Shown here piece after piece: positions 12,798 to 28,969 of a stretch of DNA of 28,969 nt. Under the pieces are notes generated by a model, which saw only the letters and a list, made by a program, of their open reading frames with translations, did no database searches and was not told the origin of the DNA. Source of the stretch: a virus. Made by a program: the position numbers and the translations under genes. Position 1 is the first letter of the stretch, and the number at the start of each line of letters is the position of its first letter. Where the stretch lies: IMG/VR virus record IMGVR_UViG_3300030329_004977, positions 1 to 28,969 of that record; one strand, written 5' to 3'.

Positions 12798-13094
12798 TCA
12801 CCAACCCTTTTTCGGCTGCTCTAAGTCCCTGTCTTTTCTATAGTCTACGAGTAATTCTTCTCCCTCTTCAACTTCATTAAGAGTGACTAAATATTTAAAA
12901 TCTCCCAGCGTAAGAGATCGACAATTCGGCTCGTTAGAATGATTATAAGAACAGTTCGGCACAAGATTAAGCCACTGCAAAGCGCCGCTTGTTTTCTTAT
13001 GTGTCTCAAACAAGACCGTATTAGCCGGTATAGCCTCCTTAGCAAATATACCCTTTCCATGTACATCACTAGTACGCAGTTCGCAGAAACTCAT
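12798..13094 (-). CDS. Minimal SET-domain protein
   Basis: 98 residues from MSFCELRTSD (GGAGG right before it; an ATG six codons upstream overlaps the ribosome site). SET signatures are in order: GKG at 13-15 within VHGKGIFAKEAIP, NHSNEPNC at 51-58 (the pseudoknot NHS..PN motif) and EEGEELLVDY at 76-85 with the catalytic-type Tyr. SET proteins move methyl groups from S-adenosylmethionine to lysines. There are no pre- or post-SET cysteine clusters, so it is about as small as the domain can be. The target could be a host or phage protein. It is coupled to the gene upstream by a 4-bp overlap. Confidence 0.85.
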   Translation of the reverse strand: MSFCELRTSDVHGKGIFAKEAIPANTVLFETHKKTSGALQWLNLVPNCSYNHSNEPNCRSLTLGDFKYLVTLNEVEEGEELLVDYRKDRDLEQPKKGW

Positions 13095-13288
13095 TTTTCC
13101 TCCAGCTCGCATCTGCCTCGTCCACTTTTCTTAATAATACCTAGTCGTTGCCGCAGTTTTCTTACTGCGTCTATTGAAATACTACGTTGATTCCGCAAGC
13201 TTAATTCTTTAGCTAGATCTTTATCTTTCGTATTGTGCGCATTTTCTCTAACAAATTGCTTATCTTTACTAGTCCATCTATTATTCAT
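13091..13288 (-). CDS. Small Myb/SANT- or HTH-like DNA-binding protein
   Basis: 65 residues. WTSKDKQFVRENAHNTKDKD followed by LAKELSLRN and SIDAVRKLRQRLGI is the W...F...N....d..iA..l....s..aV..kr..lgi layout of small Myb-like phage regulators. No ribosome site precedes the ATG, so it may start near the 5' end of the message. It is the first leftward gene after the divergent region and overlaps the SET gene. A candidate early regulator (inference). Confidence 0.7.
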   Translation of the reverse strand: MNNRWTSKDKQFVRENAHNTKDKDLAKELSLRNQRSISIDAVRKLRQRLGIIKKSGRGRCELEEK

Positions 13289-13513: not shown

Positions 13514-13760
13514 AGGTTCAGGAGAAACTACTAAAGTGGTTGATGCTGAAACTGGTGAAGAGCTAGAGAATGTAATAGGTTTAGAATTAAGTATGGATGC
13601 GTTTAATGTGCAGGCTGCTCTATTAGTTAGAGATCCTCATTTAGCTATTAATAATTTAGAAGCACAGGAGATTCGACAAGGTGATTCCGCAGGGTATGAC
13701 GGAGGAACAAGTAGTTCAGATAATCAACAACATATCGAACAGGCTAGCCAACAAGTTTAA
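13491..13760 (+). CDS. Small phage protein of unknown function
   Basis: 89 residues. MKLKIVSEGSGETTKVVDAE followed by TGEELENVIGLELSMDAFNV is a pattern I associate with short beta-sheet proteins near phage structural genes ('kivsdG....TkV.d..TGe.l.nV..i'). The C-terminal 25 residues are polar and Gln/Ser-rich. AGGAG before the ATG. It overlaps the sigma-like gene by 80 bp in a different frame, an unusually long overlap. Confidence 0.65.
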   Translation: MKLKIVSEGSGETTKVVDAETGEELENVIGLELSMDAFNVQAALLVRDPHLAINNLEAQEIRQGDSAGYDGGTSSSDNQQHIEQASQQV

Positions 13761-14304
13761 GTTCGGCTACCATGATATTGACGATATGAAGCAGCAGGCA
13801 AGGCTTTTTGCTTGGGAGGGAATAGAAAATTACGATGGTGTTAGACCGCTTGAAAATTTTCTCTGGACACATGTTAGAAACCGTTTGTATAATTTTAAGA
13901 GGAACAACTTCGGAAGGCCAGATAAGCCCTGCGATTCCTGTCCATATTTTGATATAGCCCATGAGAACGACAAGGGATATCCGTGTAAAGCATATGATGA
14001 CCACGAAGAATGTGATCTATATATGGGATGGCTCAAGAGAAACACCGCAAAACGCAATATTATGAATACCGCACAACTAGACCTAGAAGTACGACAGTCG
14101 GACGCAATCGAAGAAATGCTCGACAAAAAACAAATATTTAATTTAATCGATAAATCTATTCCTGTACATTACCGAGAAGATTGGATCAGGTTTATTAATA
14201 ATTTAAAACTCTCTAAAGCTAAGAGAGAATCGCTCGTAGCTACTATTGTTGGAATTCTGAAGGAGAACAAGATTGACGAAAAAGCGTGGAAAACTGTCGA
14301 TTGA
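13681..14304 (+). CDS. Phage sigma factor-like protein (late sigma candidate)
   Basis: 207 residues if the GTG at 13681 is used (AGGAG 10 bp upstream); an ATG five codons later is the alternative. Residues about 28-75 match sigma70 region 2: YHDIDDMKQQARLFAWEGIE (core binding) then PLENFLWTHVRNRLYNFKR. A stretch with Cys84, Cys87, Cys102 and Cys111 follows and could form a zinc site. No clear region 4 is visible. Phages such as T4 use a region-2-based sigma (gp55) for late genes, and this gene heads the late operon. It overlaps both neighbours. Confidence 0.75.
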   Translation: MIPQGMTEEQVVQIINNISNRLANKFKFGYHDIDDMKQQARLFAWEGIENYDGVRPLENFLWTHVRNRLYNFKRNNFGRPDKPCDSCPYFDIAHENDKGYPCKAYDDHEECDLYMGWLKRNTAKRNIMNTAQLDLEVRQSDAIEEMLDKKQIFNLIDKSIPVHYREDWIRFINNLKLSKAKRESLVATIVGILKENKIDEKAWKTVD

Positions 14305-15076
14305 GGAGATGAACTATATTCGGCAGAATTGTTTTGATCTTCCGATTGAGGATATTGCGGAAAAGTTAAACAGAACAGTATCTCCGATTCAAAAGTTTAT
14401 CGATAAAGAAAACCTCAAGATGAGGAATATGAGTGACGATGAACATTTATTAGTGAATCTACGGGGCCGCTATTATTATAAGGAACTTAGAAAACAGTTC
14501 GGAGATCCCGAGCTTATTTTTTTTGAACATCAGTGGATAGATTATTTCAAGCAATTCTCCGAAGATGTAACCCACACCGAGGAAATGGAAATATTAGAGG
14601 TTATTAGAACTGAGGTACTTATTAACCGTGGGATGGAAGATCGCCAAGAAGTTTTAAGAAATATTGATAGATTAAATAGGTTGATTGAAGATGAAATGGA
14701 TAAGCCGCCTGCGGCACAGGATACACAGGCCATAGCGTCGTTTCAAACTCAACTCGGCGCGGCTATATCGTCTAAATCTGCGTACATTAATGAACACGAA
14801 AAGTTACTGACAAAAAAAGAGCGGCTTTTGAAAGATCTTAAGGGCACGAGGGAGCAGCGGAAAAGGAATGCAGACGACGCAAAAACAAACTTTACATCAT
14901 GGTTGCGCCAACTGCAAGACTTGGAGGTGAGGGAGAAGGAAGGATTTGATATGGAAGTTCATCGGGTAGCGGCTGAAAAGGCAGTGGATAAACTAGCTAA
15001 GTACCATGAGTATGAGGACGGTACTGTCGATCAGCCGGTTTTAAACGCAGACACTCTAATTGAGGAGAACAAATGA
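14273..15076 (+). CDS. Small-terminase-like protein
   Basis: 267 residues from a TTG start with a strong AAGGAG; it overlaps the sigma gene by 32 bp. The N-terminus (LSIEEMNYIRQNCFDLPIED then IAEKLNRTVSPIQKFI) is a helix-turn-helix as in terminase small subunits. The middle and C-terminus are long charged helices (residues about 115-235) able to form a coiled coil and oligomer. Role: recognise phage DNA and load the large terminase. Position supports the call, but large terminase lies 3 kb away behind an inserted block. Could also be another DNA-binding scaffold. Confidence 0.6.
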   Translation: MTKKRGKLSIEEMNYIRQNCFDLPIEDIAEKLNRTVSPIQKFIDKENLKMRNMSDDEHLLVNLRGRYYYKELRKQFGDPELIFFEHQWIDYFKQFSEDVTHTEEMEILEVIRTEVLINRGMEDRQEVLRNIDRLNRLIEDEMDKPPAAQDTQAIASFQTQLGAAISSKSAYINEHEKLLTKKERLLKDLKGTREQRKRNADDAKTNFTSWLRQLQDLEVREKEGFDMEVHRVAAEKAVDKLAKYHEYEDGTVDQPVLNADTLIEENK

Positions 15077-15429
15077 CGCCTAAAACTCAGGAAGAAGTGC
15101 AGGAATGGATAGTCCAATGGTTGGTCGATGTTGCAGCAGTTACAAGAGACTCTATTGAACTTGATAAACCTTTTAATGATTATCACTTGGATTCTTTAAC
15201 GGCGGCAGAATTTAGTGATGATATTCATGACTGGCTTGGTGTTGAGGTTCCTATTACACTCATCTGGAACTATCCGACGTTAGCCGATATGACGAGCTAC
15301 CTGTCGGCAAGGTCAAATGGCAAGACCGAAGAAGAAATGCGTCCTGCACCAACTGCGGAAGCTGTGCAGGCGATTTTAAATGATGTTGAAAATTTAACTG
15401 ATGATGAAGCTGAAAAATTGTTGGAATAG
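15073..15429 (+). CDS. Acyl/peptidyl carrier protein, PKS type
   Basis: 118 residues. The phosphopantetheine site is clear: DYHLDSLTAAEF with Ser41, preceded by IELDKPFND and followed by WLGVEVPITLIWNYPTLADM, the consensus of polyketide-synthase carrier domains rather than of fatty-acid AcpP. After the four-helix domain (about 8-82) comes an acidic tail ending NLTDDEAEKLLE, resembling the end of PKS modules. It would need a host phosphopantetheinyl transferase; none is in view. It overlaps the small-terminase-like gene by 4 bp with GAGGAG before the ATG, so it is firmly inside the late operon. An FkbM methyltransferase and Gmd follow. Confidence 0.88.
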   Translation: MTPKTQEEVQEWIVQWLVDVAAVTRDSIELDKPFNDYHLDSLTAAEFSDDIHDWLGVEVPITLIWNYPTLADMTSYLSARSNGKTEEEMRPAPTAEAVQAILNDVENLTDDEAEKLLE

Positions 15430-15431
15430 CT

Positions 15432-16253
15432 ATGTTCTGGTTGAAGAAAAAAATAAAATTACCTTACGTTGATATAGGTTCTGTTAAATATACATATCCA
15501 TTAGAGTCAAGGGATAATATTATAGACTATCTAATTGACCAAGAACGTCTATTTAATAACAGTTCCGATATAAGAAAATTACAGTTATGTTTAAGGACAG
15601 GAGGGTGCATAGTCGATGCAGGATGTCATATTGGAAGTAAAACGCTATACTTAGCAGAATATAAAAGATATCGATTTATTTCGATTGATGCCTGTCCAGA
15701 AAGTATTAATTGTTTAAAGGAAAGTGTTAGGGAAAATGATTTAGATGACTATGTGCGACCAGTACAAGCAGTTTTATCCCATTCAAATTTTTTATGTAGT
15801 TTTGATCAACAGACTAACGAACGTTCTATTATTGAAAAGCCTATATCGTTTTGGAAATCCTTATTTTCTAAAAACACTAAAAGATACAAAACAAAAACTC
15901 TTGATAAAATTATTGGCGATACACGCTGTGGAGTAATTAAGGTCGATGTCGGTGGTTATGAGTTGTCTATATTACATGGCGCTATAGAAACAATAAAAAG
16001 GGATAGTCCTAATTTATTAATTAATTTTGATGGGCGTAATGCATCAATTGATTCTATATTAGACTTATTGGACGAATTAGAGTATGAGGCATTTTTTTTA
16101 ACTGATCAAATAGACCCTACTAATTCACTTCCTATTATATATAAAGTTGATAAGGCTTGTGACAATTGTCAACCAACATTTATGATGTGTTTTCACAAAG
16201 ATGTTCAGAAACATGGGTTGTCGCTTGGTCAGTTAGAGGGAGCAATGATATGA
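15432..16253 (+). CDS. FkbM-family methyltransferase
   Basis: 273 residues. VDAGCHIGSKTLYLAE at 60-76 is motif I of SAM-dependent methyltransferases and is followed by an acidic residue after a strand (FISIDACPES). KTLDKIIGD with GVIKVDVGGYELSILHGA is the FkbM signature (usually K-D-EG-E-VL-GA; here the Glu is replaced by Gly in DVGGYE). FkbM enzymes O-methylate sugars or polyketides. It begins 3 bp after the carrier-protein gene and overlaps gmd by 4 bp, which points to a joint role in making or capping a glycan or acyl product. Confidence 0.85.
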   Translation: MFWLKKKIKLPYVDIGSVKYTYPLESRDNIIDYLIDQERLFNNSSDIRKLQLCLRTGGCIVDAGCHIGSKTLYLAEYKRYRFISIDACPESINCLKESVRENDLDDYVRPVQAVLSHSNFLCSFDQQTNERSIIEKPISFWKSLFSKNTKRYKTKTLDKIIGDTRCGVIKVDVGGYELSILHGAIETIKRDSPNLLINFDGRNASIDSILDLLDELEYEAFFLTDQIDPTNSLPIIYKVDKACDNCQPTFMMCFHKDVQKHGLSLGQLEGAMI

Positions 16254-17353
16254 AGACAGCGTTAATTACTGGTGTTACAGGACAAGATGGTTCATACTTA
16301 GCAGAGCTATTACTTGCTAAAGATTATAATGTAATTGGTCTTAAAAGACGTTCTAGTATTGATAATTTAACTAGATTGTCTAAATGTATAAACCATCCTA
16401 AGTTTATTATAACCGAAGGAGAAGTGGCGGATTCGGGCTGTGTATATGATATTGTAAATAAATACCAACCTGATGAAATTTATAATCTTGCGGCACAATC
16501 TCATGTAGGAACGTCGTTTGAACAACCAGATTTTACCTTTCAAGTCAATGCTTTGGGGCCGTTGCACTTTTTAGAGGCTATTCGGCGTTATTCACCTCAT
16601 ACAAGATTTTATCAAGCTTCTACAAGTGAGATGTTTGGTAAAAATTATACAGAGGTTAATGATTTTTATGATGGCAGAACTGTTGAGGCAAAATATCAAA
16701 ATGAAGAAACGCCTTTTCAGCCTCAATCTCCATATGCTGTCGCTAAGGTAGCTGCACATCATCTTGTGCGTATTTATCGTGAAGCATACGATGTGTTTGG
16801 TTGTTGTGGAATTCTTTTTAATCATGAGAGTGAGCGTCGTGGAGAGAATTTTGTAACACGTAAGATTACAAAATGGATAGGCGAGTTTTCGGTTTGGATA
16901 GATAGACACAATGTTTCTTATACAGATTTAGTTTTTGACAATGATGAACTTTACATTCCGGGCAGGACTTCTAAAGAACAGGGATTTCAATTTCCTAAGT
17001 TGCGATTGGGTAATTTAGAAGCGCGTAGAGATTGGGGGCATGCTCAAGATTATGTTGAAGCTATGTATCTCATGACTCAACAAGAAGAGCCTAAAGATTA
17101 TGTTATTGCTACTGGCACTACCCATTCCATTCGAGACTTACTTGATGCAGCATTTAAATATATTGATATATATGAATGGGAAAAATTTATTGTGATAGAT
17201 CCTAAGTTCTATAGACCTGCCGAAGTTGAATATCTTCAAGGTCTACCTACTGATGCAATTGAATCATTGGGATGGAAACCTCAAAGAACTTTTGAAGAAT
17301 TAGTCAAAACCATGGTGGAACACGATATAAATGAGTCGCAGAAATTGGAATGA
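16250..17353 (+). CDS. gmd: GDP-mannose 4,6-dehydratase
   Basis: 367 residues from the ATG at 16250 (GAGGGAG site), matching the usual 345-375; an upstream open frame lies inside the FkbM gene. The NAD(P)-binding GVTGQDGSYLAE is at 8-19, the catalytic Thr125/Glu127 in STSEMFG and Tyr162/Lys166 in YAVAK. The enzyme makes GDP-4-keto-6-deoxymannose, precursor of GDP-fucose, GDP-rhamnose and perosamine. No reductase or glycosyltransferase is in the window. Its place between carrier/methyltransferase and nuclease genes, inside the packaging operon, marks it as cargo. Confidence 0.95.
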   Translation: MKTALITGVTGQDGSYLAELLLAKDYNVIGLKRRSSIDNLTRLSKCINHPKFIITEGEVADSGCVYDIVNKYQPDEIYNLAAQSHVGTSFEQPDFTFQVNALGPLHFLEAIRRYSPHTRFYQASTSEMFGKNYTEVNDFYDGRTVEAKYQNEETPFQPQSPYAVAKVAAHHLVRIYREAYDVFGCCGILFNHESERRGENFVTRKITKWIGEFSVWIDRHNVSYTDLVFDNDELYIPGRTSKEQGFQFPKLRLGNLEARRDWGHAQDYVEAMYLMTQQEEPKDYVIATGTTHSIRDLLDAAFKYIDIYEWEKFIVIDPKFYRPAEVEYLQGLPTDAIESLGWKPQRTFEELVKTMVEHDINESQKLE

Positions 17354-17603
17354 TCCAGCATATGCTCAATGGCGAAAGGATATAAGGTCACGCGATAAAG
17401 GTGTGTGTCGGTGGCCCGGATGTAACTCTAAAAAAAGACTGGAGGTGCATCATATTAAAAAATGGCAAAATAATCCGGCTTTGCGTTATTCTATTAATAA
17501 TGGTATTACTTTGTGTAAGCTCTGTCATCAGAGGATTAAGGGCAATGAAGAAAACTTTGAAATCTTTTTTCTCAAGCTCTTAGAGTGGGGTGCTAGACAA
17601 TGA
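17331..17603 (+). CDS. HNH endonuclease
   Basis: 90 residues. Zinc-type Cys pairs CRWPGC (26, 31) and CKLC (62, 65) flank the active-site LEVHHIKKW (His40, His41), INNGITLC (Asn57) and His66, a full HNH fold. Small HNH proteins beside terminase genes take part in DNA packaging in HK97-type phages; others are homing enzymes. It overlaps gmd by 23 bp and the next nuclease by 4 bp. Both roles remain possible. Confidence 0.88.
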   Translation: MSRRNWNDPAYAQWRKDIRSRDKGVCRWPGCNSKKRLEVHHIKKWQNNPALRYSINNGITLCKLCHQRIKGNEENFEIFFLKLLEWGARQ

Positions 17604-18064
17604 GTAGATTTACCGTTATTAGAGATACGCGAGAGAAAGAGGGTCATGGATGGTGGTTTGACGAAAACGCTTATTGTATAGGTACTGAGAAGACTAAATT
17701 AGATATTGGTGATTATAGTATAAAAGATAAAGAGCATATATTGTGTATAGAAAGAAAGGAATCGGTTTCCGAGTTAGCTGGAAACTGTGGGGAGAAAAGG
17801 TTTTTGCGAGAATTAAAAGCAATGGCCTCTTTTCCTCACGCCTTTCTTCTATTGGAGTTTGGGTGGCATCAAATAGAACAATACCCTGTGGGTTCTACAG
17901 TTCCCAAATCCAAGTGGAAAGATATACGAATTAAGGGTAAGTATATCATGCGAGTGCTGACTAGCGCACAGATTGAGCAAGGGATTCATGTTATAGCGTG
18001 TGGAGATAGCAAGCGAGCTGAAGAGATAGCCTTTAGAATCATGAGACATGTCAATGACCTATAA
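17600..18064 (+). CDS. ERCC4-domain nuclease (XPF/Mus81 type)
   Basis: 154 residues. VIRDTREKEG at 6-15, KLDIGDYSI at 33-41 and IERKESVSEL at 50-59 are the GDxn/ERK core of ERCC4 nucleases. The classical ERKxxxD has Ser in place of Asp here, with Glu next to it. Family members cut branched or flap DNA, so a role in resolving replication or packaging junctions is likely. It has no helix-hairpin-helix tail. It overlaps the HNH gene and the large terminase gene (17 bp). Confidence 0.85.
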   Translation: MSRFTVIRDTREKEGHGWWFDENAYCIGTEKTKLDIGDYSIKDKEHILCIERKESVSELAGNCGEKRFLRELKAMASFPHAFLLLEFGWHQIEQYPVGSTVPKSKWKDIRIKGKYIMRVLTSAQIEQGIHVIACGDSKRAEEIAFRIMRHVNDL

Positions 18065-20123
18065 TGTAGAAACTGCTGAACATGCATGGTTAAATGTTAG
18101 TAAAGAAGATTTAAAGGAAATAAATAATCCTTTAAAAGATCTTACACAAAAGCAAAAGGACAGTTTACATCTTCATGTTCTATCATTAATGCGTAAGCCC
18201 GAGTATTTTCAATGGACTGTTAAAAAGTTATTGAATATTGAACTATTACCAGAACAAGTAGTTATATTGCAAGAGTTGTGGACGCGAGCATTTCCTATGT
18301 ATATTGCATCGCGTGGTTTTGGTAAATCATTCTTACTTGCAGTATATGCAATCTTAAAATGCACTCTCATTCCCGGTTCTAAGATAGTTATTGTTGGTGC
18401 TGCGTTTAGACAGAGTAAAGTTATTTTTGAATACATGGATACTATATGGCGCAATGCTCCAATTTTGCAAAGTATTTGTACTGATAGTAGCGGCCCTCGT
18501 CGAGACGTAGATAGATGTACTATGCGTATCAATGATAGTTGGGCGATGGCTGTGCCTTTAGGCGATGGAAGTAAGATTAGAGGTTTGCGTGCGCATACAA
18601 TTATTGCAGACGAATTCAATTCTATTCCTGTAGAAATTTATGAAACGGTTGTTTCTGGTTTTGCTGCCGTATCTGCGAATCCTACCCAAAATGTTAAACA
18701 GGCGGCTCGTAGAAAGGTGCTTCAAGCTAAAGGTGAATGGAATGAAGATATGGAGGATGATTATAAAGAGCGTCAAGCAAACCAGTCTATTATTTCTGGA
18801 ACATGTGGATATGGTTTTGAACACTTTGCATCTTATTGGAAGAAATATAAATCTACAATCTTAACTAGGGGTGATTTTAAAAAAGCAGCTGATGATGCGG
18901 GAGATGATATAGAAAAACTTCCTGAATATATGAAGCGTCTTGATTGGAAAGCATTTTCTATCATGCGTATACCATACGAGCTTATTCCAGAAGGGTTTAT
19001 GGATGGACAGCAGGTAGCGCGAGCTAGAGCAACTATGCATAATGGTATATACCAGATGGAGTATGGTGCGTGCTTTACATCAGATAGTCAAGGGTTCTTT
19101 AAAAGAAGTTTAATCGAAGGCTGCGTTGCACATGATCGTAATTGCGAGTCTCAGGGATGGCCTGCATGGTGCGATACTCCGTTTGATCCCCTTACTCGTG
19201 GTAATCCAAACGTAAAATATGTATTTGGTATAGATCCTGCCTCTGAACAAGATAATTTTGCATTGATTATTATTGAAATTCACCCAGAACACCACAGATT
19301 AGTTTATAGTTGGACAACCAACAAGAAAGACTTTCAAAGTCGTAAAAGAATTGGTCTTACTGATGATAACGATTATTATAGTTTTTGTTGTAGAAAGATT
19401 AGAGAGCTTTATAAAGTATTTCCTTGTGCTAGAATAGGAATCGATGCTCAAGGTGGGGGTTTTGCTATAGCAGAAGGTTTGCGTGATAGTGATAAGTTAC
19501 ATGAGGGTGAAAGGCCAATATTGCCGATTATAGATGACAAAAAACCACAGGATACTGATCAGATTGCTGGAGATCATATTGTAGAATTGGTTAATTTTGC
19601 AAAAGCCGAGTGGACCTCTCAAGCTAATCATGGACTTAGAAAAGACATGGAAGATAAAGTATTGTTATTCCCCAGATTTGATACTTTAAGTCTAAGCCTA
19701 ATGAGTGAAAAAGATAAAATCTCTTTTAAACAGCTCAAAGATCGAGTAGGAGAGTCTAATGCTTTAAGACTATATGATACATTAGAAGATGCTGTTATGG
19801 AAATTGAGGAATTAAAGAATGAATTAGTAACGGTAGTTGTTTCTGTTACTTCTGGAGGTAGAGAAAGATTTGATACTCCTGAAATTAAGATGGATACTGG
19901 TAAAAAAGGACGTATGAGAAAGGATAGATATAGCGCATTGGTTATTGCAAATATGATAGCACGACAGGCTCAACGAGAAATACCCGCTCCAACATACACT
20001 AATATAGGAACTGTAATTAAGCCCGGAGTTTTTCAAGCCAATCCGTCTAATCAAATGTACGTCGGTCAAGAATGGGCTACTAATATGAATCAAAATACTT
20101 GCTTTGCAATAAAGAGAAATTAG
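18048..20123 (+). CDS. Terminase large subunit
   Basis: 691 residues. The ATPase motor is clear: Walker A SRGFGKS at 88-94 and Walker B TIIADEF near 184-190. The C-terminal nuclease of RNase H fold shows FGIDPASEQDNFALIIIE and later RIGIDAQGGGFAIAE. It pumps DNA into the prohead and cuts concatemers. Longer than the usual 420-600 residues; the extra length lies mainly between the ATPase parts and after the nuclease core. An alternative ATG two codons on is possible because no strong ribosome site is present. Portal follows after 69 bp. Confidence 0.95.
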   Translation: MSMTYNVETAEHAWLNVSKEDLKEINNPLKDLTQKQKDSLHLHVLSLMRKPEYFQWTVKKLLNIELLPEQVVILQELWTRAFPMYIASRGFGKSFLLAVYAILKCTLIPGSKIVIVGAAFRQSKVIFEYMDTIWRNAPILQSICTDSSGPRRDVDRCTMRINDSWAMAVPLGDGSKIRGLRAHTIIADEFNSIPVEIYETVVSGFAAVSANPTQNVKQAARRKVLQAKGEWNEDMEDDYKERQANQSIISGTCGYGFEHFASYWKKYKSTILTRGDFKKAADDAGDDIEKLPEYMKRLDWKAFSIMRIPYELIPEGFMDGQQVARARATMHNGIYQMEYGACFTSDSQGFFKRSLIEGCVAHDRNCESQGWPAWCDTPFDPLTRGNPNVKYVFGIDPASEQDNFALIIIEIHPEHHRLVYSWTTNKKDFQSRKRIGLTDDNDYYSFCCRKIRELYKVFPCARIGIDAQGGGFAIAEGLRDSDKLHEGERPILPIIDDKKPQDTDQIAGDHIVELVNFAKAEWTSQANHGLRKDMEDKVLLFPRFDTLSLSLMSEKDKISFKQLKDRVGESNALRLYDTLEDAVMEIEELKNELVTVVVSVTSGGRERFDTPEIKMDTGKKGRMRKDRYSALVIANMIARQAQREIPAPTYTNIGTVIKPGVFQANPSNQMYVGQEWATNMNQNTCFAIKRN

Positions 20124-25929: not shown

Positions 25930-25946
25930 TATAAGGAAGCTTGAGC

Positions 25947-28900
25947 ATGGCCAAGGCTTTTGATAGGAATATAGTGTTTTTGGATCGAGCTAAGGAAACC
26001 ACCAGTACTCTAGGTAGGGGCGCTTTAAGTTTAGCAGGAGCTGTTGCAGGCTTCCAACCATTATCAGGTATAGGATGGGGCACCGGATTGTATGGAAGTC
26101 CTCAAAACTATAGTTATTATACTCTTGAAGAGGGTGAAGAATGGGAAGTTGGTCTTGGTGCGTATTATCCCCTAGGCAATACTTGGGGTCGTGAGGAAAT
26201 TTTTGACAGTAGTGTAACTGGAGCAGCTGCCGCTGTTAATAAGAGAATTGATCTACGGGGTTATGGAACGATATTTTTAACACTTCCAGCTTCTAAGCTT
26301 ATTGCTGCTAGCTCTGGTAATTATGTAGGTATAGGAGTTGAACAACCACAATATGAATTAGATGTTTCTGGAACTACAAATGTGGGTCAGATTAGAGTAG
26401 ATGCTGAAGGAGCAGATGCGCCATTTGAGATTAAAGGTGGTTCTAATGTTGAAATTCATTGGTCTGACGGCACAGTACAGAATACTTCTCCTACTGGAGC
26501 TATTAATACTGTTTCTGGAATGTTGTCACCGGCTGGATCGAATCGCGCCATACAATTTAATAATAATGAATTATACGGGGGATCTAATTCTCTTGCATTT
26601 CGTAATGTGGGCTTAGGAACTTTAATTGTAAGTGGGAATATTGTCTCAGATGTTGCTCATACTGGGTATGGTCGTATTATTAGTATAGGACCGGCAGCGG
26701 GCGCATCGCTATCAGGAAGTGATCAAGTTATTATTGGTCATGATGCAGGCGAGGGTAGTGGTAGTAATAGTGTAATTATAGGGTCAGCGGCTGGATCACT
26801 CGCACAAAGTATAAACAATTCCGTAATCTTAGGCTATCAAGCAAAAGCAAGAAGTAATAGCGTTGTTGTTGGCGCTAGCAACGCTTCTCAACAAGGAGGG
26901 GCAAATTCAGTAGGTATAGGATATTATACCTTAACTGATTCATCAGCTCCATACTCAGTTGCAATAGGTAGCACTGCTGGTCAAAATACATCTGGTGCTC
27001 ATACTATTAATATTGGATATAATGCTAGCGCAAAAGGCGCATCTTCTGTATCTATAGGCTCAAACTCATCAACCTTATTACCATCTACTACTGGTTATAA
27101 TTATTCTGTAGCTGTTGGAGCTGCTGCTGGCGCCGTTGATCGTGCTATTGCTTTAGGATATGGTGCTCAAGCTATTCAGCCCTCTGGTTTTGTTGTTGCA
27201 AATGATTCTACAAATAGCAATATGATATTGAGTGGTATGATTGGTGAAAAGCTTAATGTACTTAATGCAAAGCTAGGTATTAATCAAAACGATCCAGAAG
27301 CAATGTTACATACTACTGCTAAAAATTCTACAGATGTTCCAATTATAATTCAAGGGACTTTTACTCAAAGCTCTGATCTCACTCGTTGGAATAATATATT
27401 GGGCGATACTTTAGCTAGGGTAACTAATGATGGAAATATTTCGGTAGTAAGTGGAAATGTTATTGTAAATAACTCAGGTAATTTCATTGCAGATAGTGGA
27501 AGCATTACTACCAATGGATTAATGAGTGGTAATTTTGACGAATTGAGATTTGTATCTGAAGGATCAAATAGAATAAAAATAGGCGTTGGAGGTGGTAATA
27601 GTAGCGGAGAAATATTTGATAATGACAGTATTTATATAGGAAATTTTGCAGGTAGTGGAATACAATTACCATCCAATTATAATACATATGTTGGGGCACA
27701 GGCTGGTGCTCATGACAGTATGGCGACACAACCAAGTGGAAAATTTCAAACATTTATTGGTTATTATGCGGGGAATAAAGCAATTGGTGGTAATTTTGGA
27801 TCTTTAGCTGGTTCCGATTATACAACCTTTGTTGGTCATACAGCAGGAAAGGACGCAAGTGGGCTTAATAGCGTTGCGATGGGCGCTAGTGCAGGCATTA
27901 GTTTTCAAGGTAGAGATGGTGTTCATATTGGAGCTAACGCTGGAGCTTATGGGAGTGGCGTATGGCAAGTTAATATAGGCTCAAGCGCTGGAGGTGGAGC
28001 TAATTCAATTGCAAATTATGCAATTAATATGGGCTACGGCGCCGGTATATTGTCAACTGGAGACAATACTATATTTATAGGAAAATATGCAGGGACAACT
28101 ACTAATGGCGATGATAATATAGAGATCGTTACTGATGGAGCAAATCCAAGCATTATTGGAGTTAATAGCAATAAGCTTCATATTCAAAATGTTATAGTTG
28201 GTGATACGTCAACTAAGAAATTGGCCATTGGAAATGTAGGAGCGTCCGACTTATCGCCTGACGCCACTTTAGAGGTTAAGCCAAACGCTAATTCAGACAT
28301 TGGTTTTGTTGTACAGGGTGCGTCTAGTCAAACAGCTAATCTTACCGAATGGCAGAATAATTCTGAAACTGTTTTAGCAAGTGTAGCAGCCGATGGTACT
28401 ATCTCTGCGAGTGGGGCTATAACAGCTGCTACCGGAATTACACTTCAACGAACTACGCCAGCAATTACAACAGATAAGCTTTATAATGTTGGTGGGGTGT
28501 TATACTTTAATGGTTCTGGAGTCAATGGTGCTGGTGGTGGTGGTGGTGGAACTAGCTATACTGCTGGAAGTGGTCTTCAATTAAATGGAACGACGTTTGA
28601 TGCTTTAACGGCTACTACTTCTACTAGCGGTATAATACAACTACAAGATTCGGCTACTGATGGAACAACAAATAGAGCAATTACTCCAAATGCTGTATAT
28701 GATATTTCTGGAGTGTTGGCAGCGGACGTGGCAAGCACCGGAACAACCAATGCTGCCGCTATCACAACGAACACCACAAATATTGCGACCAACGTTACGA
28801 ATATCGCTGCTACAGGCGCGACAAACGCTGCTGCTGCCGCGACAAACGCGACCAACATTGCGACCAACGTTACGAATATCGCTGCTACAGGCGCGACGAA

Positions 28901-28969
28901 CGCTGCTGCTGCCGCGACAAACGCGACCAACATTGCGACCAACGTTACGAATATCGCTGCTACAGGCGC
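25947..28969 (+). CDS. Tail fibre / adhesin with YadA-like head repeats (3' end missing)
   Basis: Open from ATG 25947 (AAGGAAG) to the right edge, at least 1007 residues. The N-terminus (FDRNIVFLDRAKETTSTLGR, WEVGLGAYYPLGNTWGREEI) matches the attachment domain of many phage fibres. Then come many short repeats like SVAIGSTAG, FIGYYAGNK and IGANAGAYG, the left-handed beta-roll of trimeric autotransporter heads. Two LT-W-N-----LA-V--DG-I units (near residues 475 and 803), a Gly-rich hinge and an Ala/Thr-rich coiled coil follow. It should form a trimeric fibre for host binding. The last part is encoded by 75-bp tandem repeats of higher G+C. Confidence 0.88.
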   Translation, partial: MAKAFDRNIVFLDRAKETTSTLGRGALSLAGAVAGFQPLSGIGWGTGLYGSPQNYSYYTLEEGEEWEVGLGAYYPLGNTWGREEIFDSSVTGAAAAVNKRIDLRGYGTIFLTLPASKLIAASSGNYVGIGVEQPQYELDVSGTTNVGQIRVDAEGADAPFEIKGGSNVEIHWSDGTVQNTSPTGAINTVSGMLSPAGSNRAIQFNNNELYGGSNSLAFRNVGLGTLIVSGNIVSDVAHTGYGRIISIGPAAGASLSGSDQVIIGHDAGEGSGSNSVIIGSAAGSLAQSINNSVILGYQAKARSNSVVVGASNASQQGGANSVGIGYYTLTDSSAPYSVAIGSTAGQNTSGAHTINIGYNASAKGASSVSIGSNSSTLLPSTTGYNYSVAVGAAAGAVDRAIALGYGAQAIQPSGFVVANDSTNSNMILSGMIGEKLNVLNAKLGINQNDPEAMLHTTAKNSTDVPIIIQGTFTQSSDLTRWNNILGDTLARVTNDGNISVVSGNVIVNNSGNFIADSGSITTNGLMSGNFDELRFVSEGSNRIKIGVGGGNSSGEIFDNDSIYIGNFAGSGIQLPSNYNTYVGAQAGAHDSMATQPSGKFQTFIGYYAGNKAIGGNFGSLAGSDYTTFVGHTAGKDASGLNSVAMGASAGISFQGRDGVHIGANAGAYGSGVWQVNIGSSAGGGANSIANYAINMGYGAGILSTGDNTIFIGKYAGTTTNGDDNIEIVTDGANPSIIGVNSNKLHIQNVIVGDTSTKKLAIGNVGASDLSPDATLEVKPNANSDIGFVVQGASSQTANLTEWQNNSETVLASVAADGTISASGAITAATGITLQRTTPAITTDKLYNVGGVLYFNGSGVNGAGGGGGGTSYTAGSGLQLNGTTFDALTATTSTSGIIQLQDSATDGTTNRAITPNAVYDISGVLAADVASTGTTNAAAITTNTTNIATNVTNIAATGATNAAAAATNATNIATNVTNIAATGATNAAAAATNATNIATNVTNIAATG
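28785..28969 (+). repeat. 75-bp tandem repeats in the fibre gene
   Basis: Units start at 28785, 28860 and 28935 (the last cut by the window). The two complete units differ by one base. Each encodes 25 residues of the type ATNVTNIAATGATNAAAA, keeping the frame and a coiled-coil-like register. G+C is well above the rest of the gene. Confidence 0.95.

Follow-up and report, generated by a model that had tools for sequence, protein, structure and literature searches.

We propose, with a probability of roughly one half, that the acyl carrier protein (ACP) encoded in this DNA from an uncultivated phage group is part of an optional glycan-decoration cassette, which is inserted behind a conserved upstream gene and in front of the core gene for GDP-mannose 4,6-dehydratase (GMD). 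The window, which is the whole stretch of 28,969 nucleotides that was analysed, was compared with related phage loci. At the sequence level, the comparison demonstrates a carrier with a conserved Ser41, a variable slot, a linkage with FkbM and GMD genes, purifying selection on the ACP, and turnover of the FkbM genes. Phage ACPs have been noted for years, and here a distinct PKS/FAAL-type ACP is tied to a slot, a variable FkbM methyltransferase, and a core deoxysugar enzyme. The presence of ACPs in phages can now be tested for a role in the acylation and methylation of glycans, either on virions or on the host surface.

The open reading frame that a sequence-only reading had taken for a PKS-type ACP was confirmed at 118 residues, with a Shine-Dalgarno site and an ATGA overlap that joins its start to the upstream gene (Table 1). 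Its family and fold matches identify it as a genuine acyl/peptidyl carrier protein, whose phosphopantetheinylation itself is predicted. The Pfam PP-binding family PF00550 matched the ACP at 7.9e-14 (52.1 bits against a cut-off of 20.8) and was also above the cut-off in the phage records G001, G002, G003, G004, and G006. At E≤0.01, 28 PDB sequences matched, all of which are named carrier proteins or carrier-containing megasynthases. These matches were led by Anabaena Asl1650, a free-standing carrier of A. baumannii, and PKS ACPs. The fold was predicted by AlphaFold with an input including four phage homologues, and the model has a mean pLDDT of 80 with helices at residues 6-19, 41-55, 61-66, and 70-81. 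Therefore, Ser41 opens helix II, and the predicted structure is a four-helix ACP fold with a modifiable serine at the start of helix II. The best fold matches in the PDB were Pks13 N-terminal ACPs, Asl1650, and 4hkg. The textbook site and the PKS type claimed earlier are both supported. Residues 94-118 form a tail with two predicted helices (95-106 and 110-117, pLDDT about 60-68). The tail aligns to the end of a Planktothrix type I PKS, with which it has the motif 'V..L(S/T)(D/E).EA..LL' in common, and it is kept in all of the ACP homologues. The two helices and the alignment agree with the earlier remark that the tail resembles the ends of PKS modules. A chance open reading frame was ruled out by the family match, the fold, and the dN/dS values.

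Table 1. Features of the window around the carrier protein gene.
Feature	Coordinates	Strand	Evidence or remark
267 aa protein preceding the slot ('TerS-like' by position only)	14273..15076	+	phrog_323 transcriptional regulator 6e-5
GAGGAG Shine-Dalgarno / ribosome-binding site	15062-15067	+	inside 3' end of upstream gene; read from sequence
Acyl carrier protein, PKS/FAAL-type, 118 aa	15073..15429	+	PF00550 match, PDB matches, predicted fold, Ser41, dN/dS
Phosphopantetheine site of the ACP, Ser41 codon	15193-15195		motif LDSL
FkbM-family SAM-dependent methyltransferase (FkbM-a), 273 aa	15432..16253	+	TIGR01444, PF05050
GDP-mannose 4,6-dehydratase (GMD), 367 aa, clade core gene	16250..17353	+	PF16363 7.1e-110
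HNH endonuclease, downstream of GMD	17331..17603	+	PF01844 3.4e-8
ERCC4-type nuclease	17600..18064	+	PF02732 3.5e-10, phrog_3490 1.1e-17
Terminase large subunit (TerL)	18048..20123	+	phrog_2 8.9e-19

ACP homologues that can be aligned end to end were found on viral contigs only. Their identities to the window ACP are 93% in L002, 66% in L003 (two near-identical contigs), and 38% in L046, and the ACP of L006 is present as a tail fragment. The conservation of Ser41, which had been suggested as a check on the site, was verified in the four full-length versions (window, L002, L003, and L046; 38-93% identity), in which the residue is invariant. Pairwise dN/dS values are about 0.14-0.16 (dN 0.037 and dS 0.258 for the window against L002, dN 0.21 and dS 1.34 for the window against L003). 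Therefore, the protein is maintained by purifying selection. On sequence and predicted fold, the ACP core is nearest to FAAL-loaded carriers (the Pks13 N-terminal ACP, 4hkg, and the Nostoc and Planktothrix ACPs), and neither to AcpP of FAS nor to the ACP families known from phages. Its nearest cellular relatives adjoin FAAL and PKS genes, and no close cellular homologue was found in genome_contigs with six exact peptide patterns. Neither the window ACP nor that of L003 matched phrog_5934 or phrog_4154, and the L046 ACP reached E=1.5 only. Membership in the phage ACP families of PHROGs was ruled out, as no match had a useful score.

No phosphopantetheinyl transferase (PF01648) was found in 14 phage records, and neither a ketosynthase (PF00109) nor an AMP-binding/acyl-AMP ligase (PF00501) was found in nine phage records, all of these records being fragments. 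The control genomes matched as expected in these searches. The result agrees with the earlier statement that no ketosynthase or phosphopantetheinyl transferase is in view. The ACP is free-standing; it does not share one module with a ketosynthase as in a type I PKS, and no FAAL is encoded alongside it in the nine records. Searches for these three families thus revealed no loading, activation, or chain-building enzymes of the phage's own in the records covered, and the chemistry of the cassette would rely on host enzymes. The scan of genome_contigs with the upstream protein gave no relative, the tblastn search with FkbM against the phage records gave no relative, and that with TerL gave only distant Bacillus, Microcystis, and SPbeta-type matches. 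A cellular donor or host did not surface from the scans with the ACP, the upstream protein, FkbM, and TerL.

The gene behind the ACP was matched by TIGR01444 (2.3e-18, 67.1 bits against a cut-off of 37.7) and PF05050 (1.7e-10, 41.7 bits against a cut-off of 22.7). Its closest fold is the FkbM protein 2py6 and the remaining fold matches are generic methyltransferases; therefore, the structure permits no substrate call. The next conserved gene, which the sequence-only reading had left unnamed, is a GMD gene by its matches. The protein matches the GMDs in the PDB at about 1e-88, its YxxxK (SDR) and TSEMFG motifs are invariant, and all related loci that span the slot contain it. Its TIGR01472 score of 380.6 is under the cut-off of 415, and its exact activity is a prediction. 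The upstream 267 aa protein is 74-100% identical across 37 loci. The description of its gene as small-terminase-like was not supported, as no TerS-family match was obtained; the PHROG matches are weak ones to transcriptional regulators, and NCBIfam gave none. Directly upstream in the operon, a 207-aa protein (13681-14304) has a weak similarity to sigma-70 region 2 and a cysteine cluster, and it is possibly a late transcription factor. A small SET-domain protein (12798-13112, minus strand; PF00856 7.3e-9) is conserved in L002, G002, and G006. The leftward arm carries genes on the minus strand for an IscA/HesB-type iron-sulphur protein (130-462) and a phosphoribosyltransferase (1710-2207). A long open frame (25941-28969) runs off the end of the window, and its final few hundred bases look repetitive (repeated antisense ORF 28577-28942). 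The scan of promoters and terminators gave scores near chance level.

Gene order was compared across related loci, 11 of which were collected by a TerL scan and 37 by the upstream-protein scan. The usual order is sigma-like, TerS-like, GMD, HNH, (small ORF), ERCC4, TerL, and portal. The slot between the TerS-like gene and GMD is empty in most of the 37 loci, where the two genes directly abut each other, often with an ATGA overlap and a purine-rich ribosome-binding site before it. The GAGGAG site of the window serves any gene occupying the slot. Nuclease-like genes fill the slot in L018 and L037, which makes the TerS-like/GMD junction a general site of insertion. By eye, these two fillers (L037:3391-4704 and L018:2-772) are of the HNH or homing type, that of L037 having no Pfam match. 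The slots of the window, L002, L003, and L006 are occupied by the ACP and one or two FkbM genes, and that of L046 by the ACP alone. On the trees of the TerS-like protein and GMD, the ACP is confined to one part of the clade, in which about three gains or losses are needed. Translational coupling of the ACP to the upstream gene had also been claimed. The ATGA overlap exists in the window and L002, but it is absent in L003 and L046. Since loci with an empty slot show the same overlap at the junction of the upstream gene with GMD, the coupling belongs to the slot.

FkbM matches were obtained in six of the 14 records, solely in the slot and solely in ACP-bearing records (of the ACP, the fragment G005 includes the tail). 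The suggested partnership of the ACP with FkbM is therefore retained in part: FkbM is restricted to the slot of ACP carriers, but L046 has an ACP without FkbM before GMD, which rules out an obligatory pairing. Between the window and L002, the upstream proteins are 100% identical and the ACPs 93%, whereas the FkbM-a proteins are only 40% identical, and FkbM-a shares 40-44% identity with the corresponding proteins of the other cassette loci. The difference indicates that FkbM was exchanged or diverged much faster while the ACP stayed. In L003, the 59 bases from FkbM-a to GMD (L003:11270-11328) contain a recognisable 3' end of FkbM-b, which is a deletion scar with a local score of 35, whereas 2000 shuffles reached 15 at most. 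Therefore, the L003 lineage formerly had the order ACP-FkbMa-FkbMb-GMD, as in L002 and L006.

In the proposed glycan-decoration cassette, a phosphopantetheinyl transferase of the host would make holo-ACP, and a host enzyme, most plausibly of the FAAL type, would load an acyl or hydroxyacyl group on it. The docking-like tail may direct the ACP towards a partner enzyme. The acyl group would then pass to a 6-deoxyhexose made from the GMD product, and either this sugar or the acyl group would be O-methylated by FkbM. The finished glycan could reside on the virion or on the host surface, and a change of the host surface would alter receptor recognition. The virion is slightly preferred, given the location of the genes in the structural operon and the glycosyltransferases encoded by the relatives. 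Swapping of FkbM beside a fixed ACP would vary the outer glycan chemistry. A more specific version, in which a PKS-type carrier diverts host acyl chains into a virion coat of acylated, O-methylated deoxysugars with FkbM varying and the carrier fixed, is rather doubtful. The cassette is supported by the position of the ACP, which immediately precedes GMD in L046 and one or more FkbM genes followed by GMD in the other loci, and by the closeness of its core to FAAL-loaded carriers. It is also supported by the other sugar genes of the relatives. The ACP-bearing G002 encodes GT2, GT11 (a weak NodZ match), an RmlD-like protein, and an epimerase, and G010, which has no ACP, encodes a group 1 glycosyltransferase and a nucleotidyltransferase. 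Against it stand the negative searches for a loading enzyme and a phosphopantetheinyl transferase in the fragmentary phage records, the lack of FkbM beside the L046 ACP, the many relatives having GMD without an ACP, and the diversity of FkbM substrates, which is too large for prediction. G002, a 56.9-kb relative, also encodes a sulfotransferase-like protein (30796-31269, L008:10796-11266; PF17784 7.4e-14), which is another possible glycan-modifying enzyme. A glycine cleavage H protein, a lipoyl carrier, is encoded at 38833-39252 of G002 (L008:18833-19249; PF01597 7e-38), and thus one phage has two swinging-arm carrier proteins.

The phage records without a partner enzyme and the L046 ACP without FkbM could also be explained by a decoy or takeover function, in which the phage holo-ACP acts as a sink for acyl chains or phosphopantetheine or as a competitor of host ACPs and thereby redirects host lipid metabolism. 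Other phages also carry AcpP-like ACPs (phrog_5934 and phrog_4154; PMC5463345), and PHROGs assigns these two families to its category of moron, auxiliary metabolic gene, and host takeover. However, the core of the present ACP is of the PKS/FAAL type and not of the AcpP type, its docking-like tail is kept in all homologues, and it shares its location and inheritance with FkbM and GMD. This function is considered unlikely, and the sequestration of host acyl chains or pantetheine raised by the sequence-only reading is less economical than a glycan-modification cassette. Lower still is the chance that the ACP is an alternative carrier for a secondary-metabolite or lipid pathway of the host, used by a host FAAL or PKS, with the adjoining sugar genes being incidental. 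Its likeness to the N-terminal ACP of Pks13 and the FAAL and PKS genes beside its nearest cellular relatives are in line with such a carrier, but the six peptide patterns gave no close cellular homologue in genome_contigs, and the linkage with GMD and FkbM is consistent.

The patchy distribution, with its few gains and losses on both trees, and the FkbM-b scar would be expected from neutral or transient cargo that was taken up from a host glycan island and has no stable function. The low dN/dS and the invariance of Ser41 make such cargo very unlikely. The least probable explanation is that the ACP is a packaging or head subunit which acts with the coupled upstream gene and may be a modified virion protein. 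It would account for the ATGA overlap in the window and L002 and for the location of the ACP in an operon with TerL and head genes, and one peptide of the putative ACP of another phage was found by mass spectrometry (PMC10892097). In contrast, most relatives keep the same upstream gene, TerL, and portal without an ACP. The overlap is missing in L003 and L046, and in loci with an empty slot it joins the upstream gene to GMD instead. The packaging genes are independent of the ACP since the slot is usually empty. The functional link to packaging seen by the sequence-only reading was therefore not sustained, and the coupling of ACP and packaging was rejected as the main reading.

Compared with known systems, the carrier core is alike in sequence and predicted fold to the Pks13 N-terminal ACP and to the free-standing FAAL-partner ACPs (Asl1650, 4hkg, Planktothrix, and Nostoc). 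The carrier is free-standing at the cyanobacterial ACP loci, as in the phage. In contrast to the FAAL-partner ACPs, the phage ACP has no adjoining FAAL or ketosynthase, adds a PKS-like two-helix tail, and is placed beside FkbM and GMD. Asl1650 was described with a variant site, whereas the site of the phage ACP is the canonical DSL. PKS docking domains of class 2 have a two-helix C-terminal element (PMC9113145). Like the phage tail, such C-terminal docking tails consist of two short helices after an ACP, although the phage tail sits on a lone ACP and no partner N-terminal docking domain was identified.

A literature search with phrases on phage-encoded ACPs gave no match. Phage ACPs have already been reported (PMC8224337, PMC5463345), and their function was called unclear in the latter study. 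The ACPs of phrog_5934 and phrog_4154 (Erythrobacter R6L, Salmonella ViI, Caulobacter phiCbK, and others) are likewise phage-encoded with a single-domain ACP fold. These two families are matched by E. coli AcpP, whereas the window ACP gives no useful match to them and has a tail and context of its own. The new element is a member which, by its matches, is of the PKS/FAAL type and stands outside the AcpP-like PHROG families.

In Enterobacteriaceae, the islands for flagellin glycosylation contain ACPs and FkbM methyltransferases alongside sugar genes, and close strains differ by single modification genes (PMC4875605). Likened by description, they have a variable cassette beside structural genes with FkbM, ACPs, and sugar genes, as in the phage. 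However, these islands are bacterial and contain LuxE, LuxC, or ligase loading enzymes, and the phage cassette has none in view. Perosamine is a sugar of the GMD pathway. In the V. cholerae O1 antigen, which is a phage receptor, perosamine is N-acylated with tetronate and O-methylated by the FkbM-family protein RfbT/WbeT (PMC3441752, PMC12146696). By description, an acyl-decorated deoxysugar with an FkbM-family O-methyltransferase is parallel to the proposed phage cassette, although perosamine synthetase and tetronate genes were not identified in the phage records. As analogies, the flagellin islands and the V. cholerae O1 antigen combine parts similar to those of the phage cassette.
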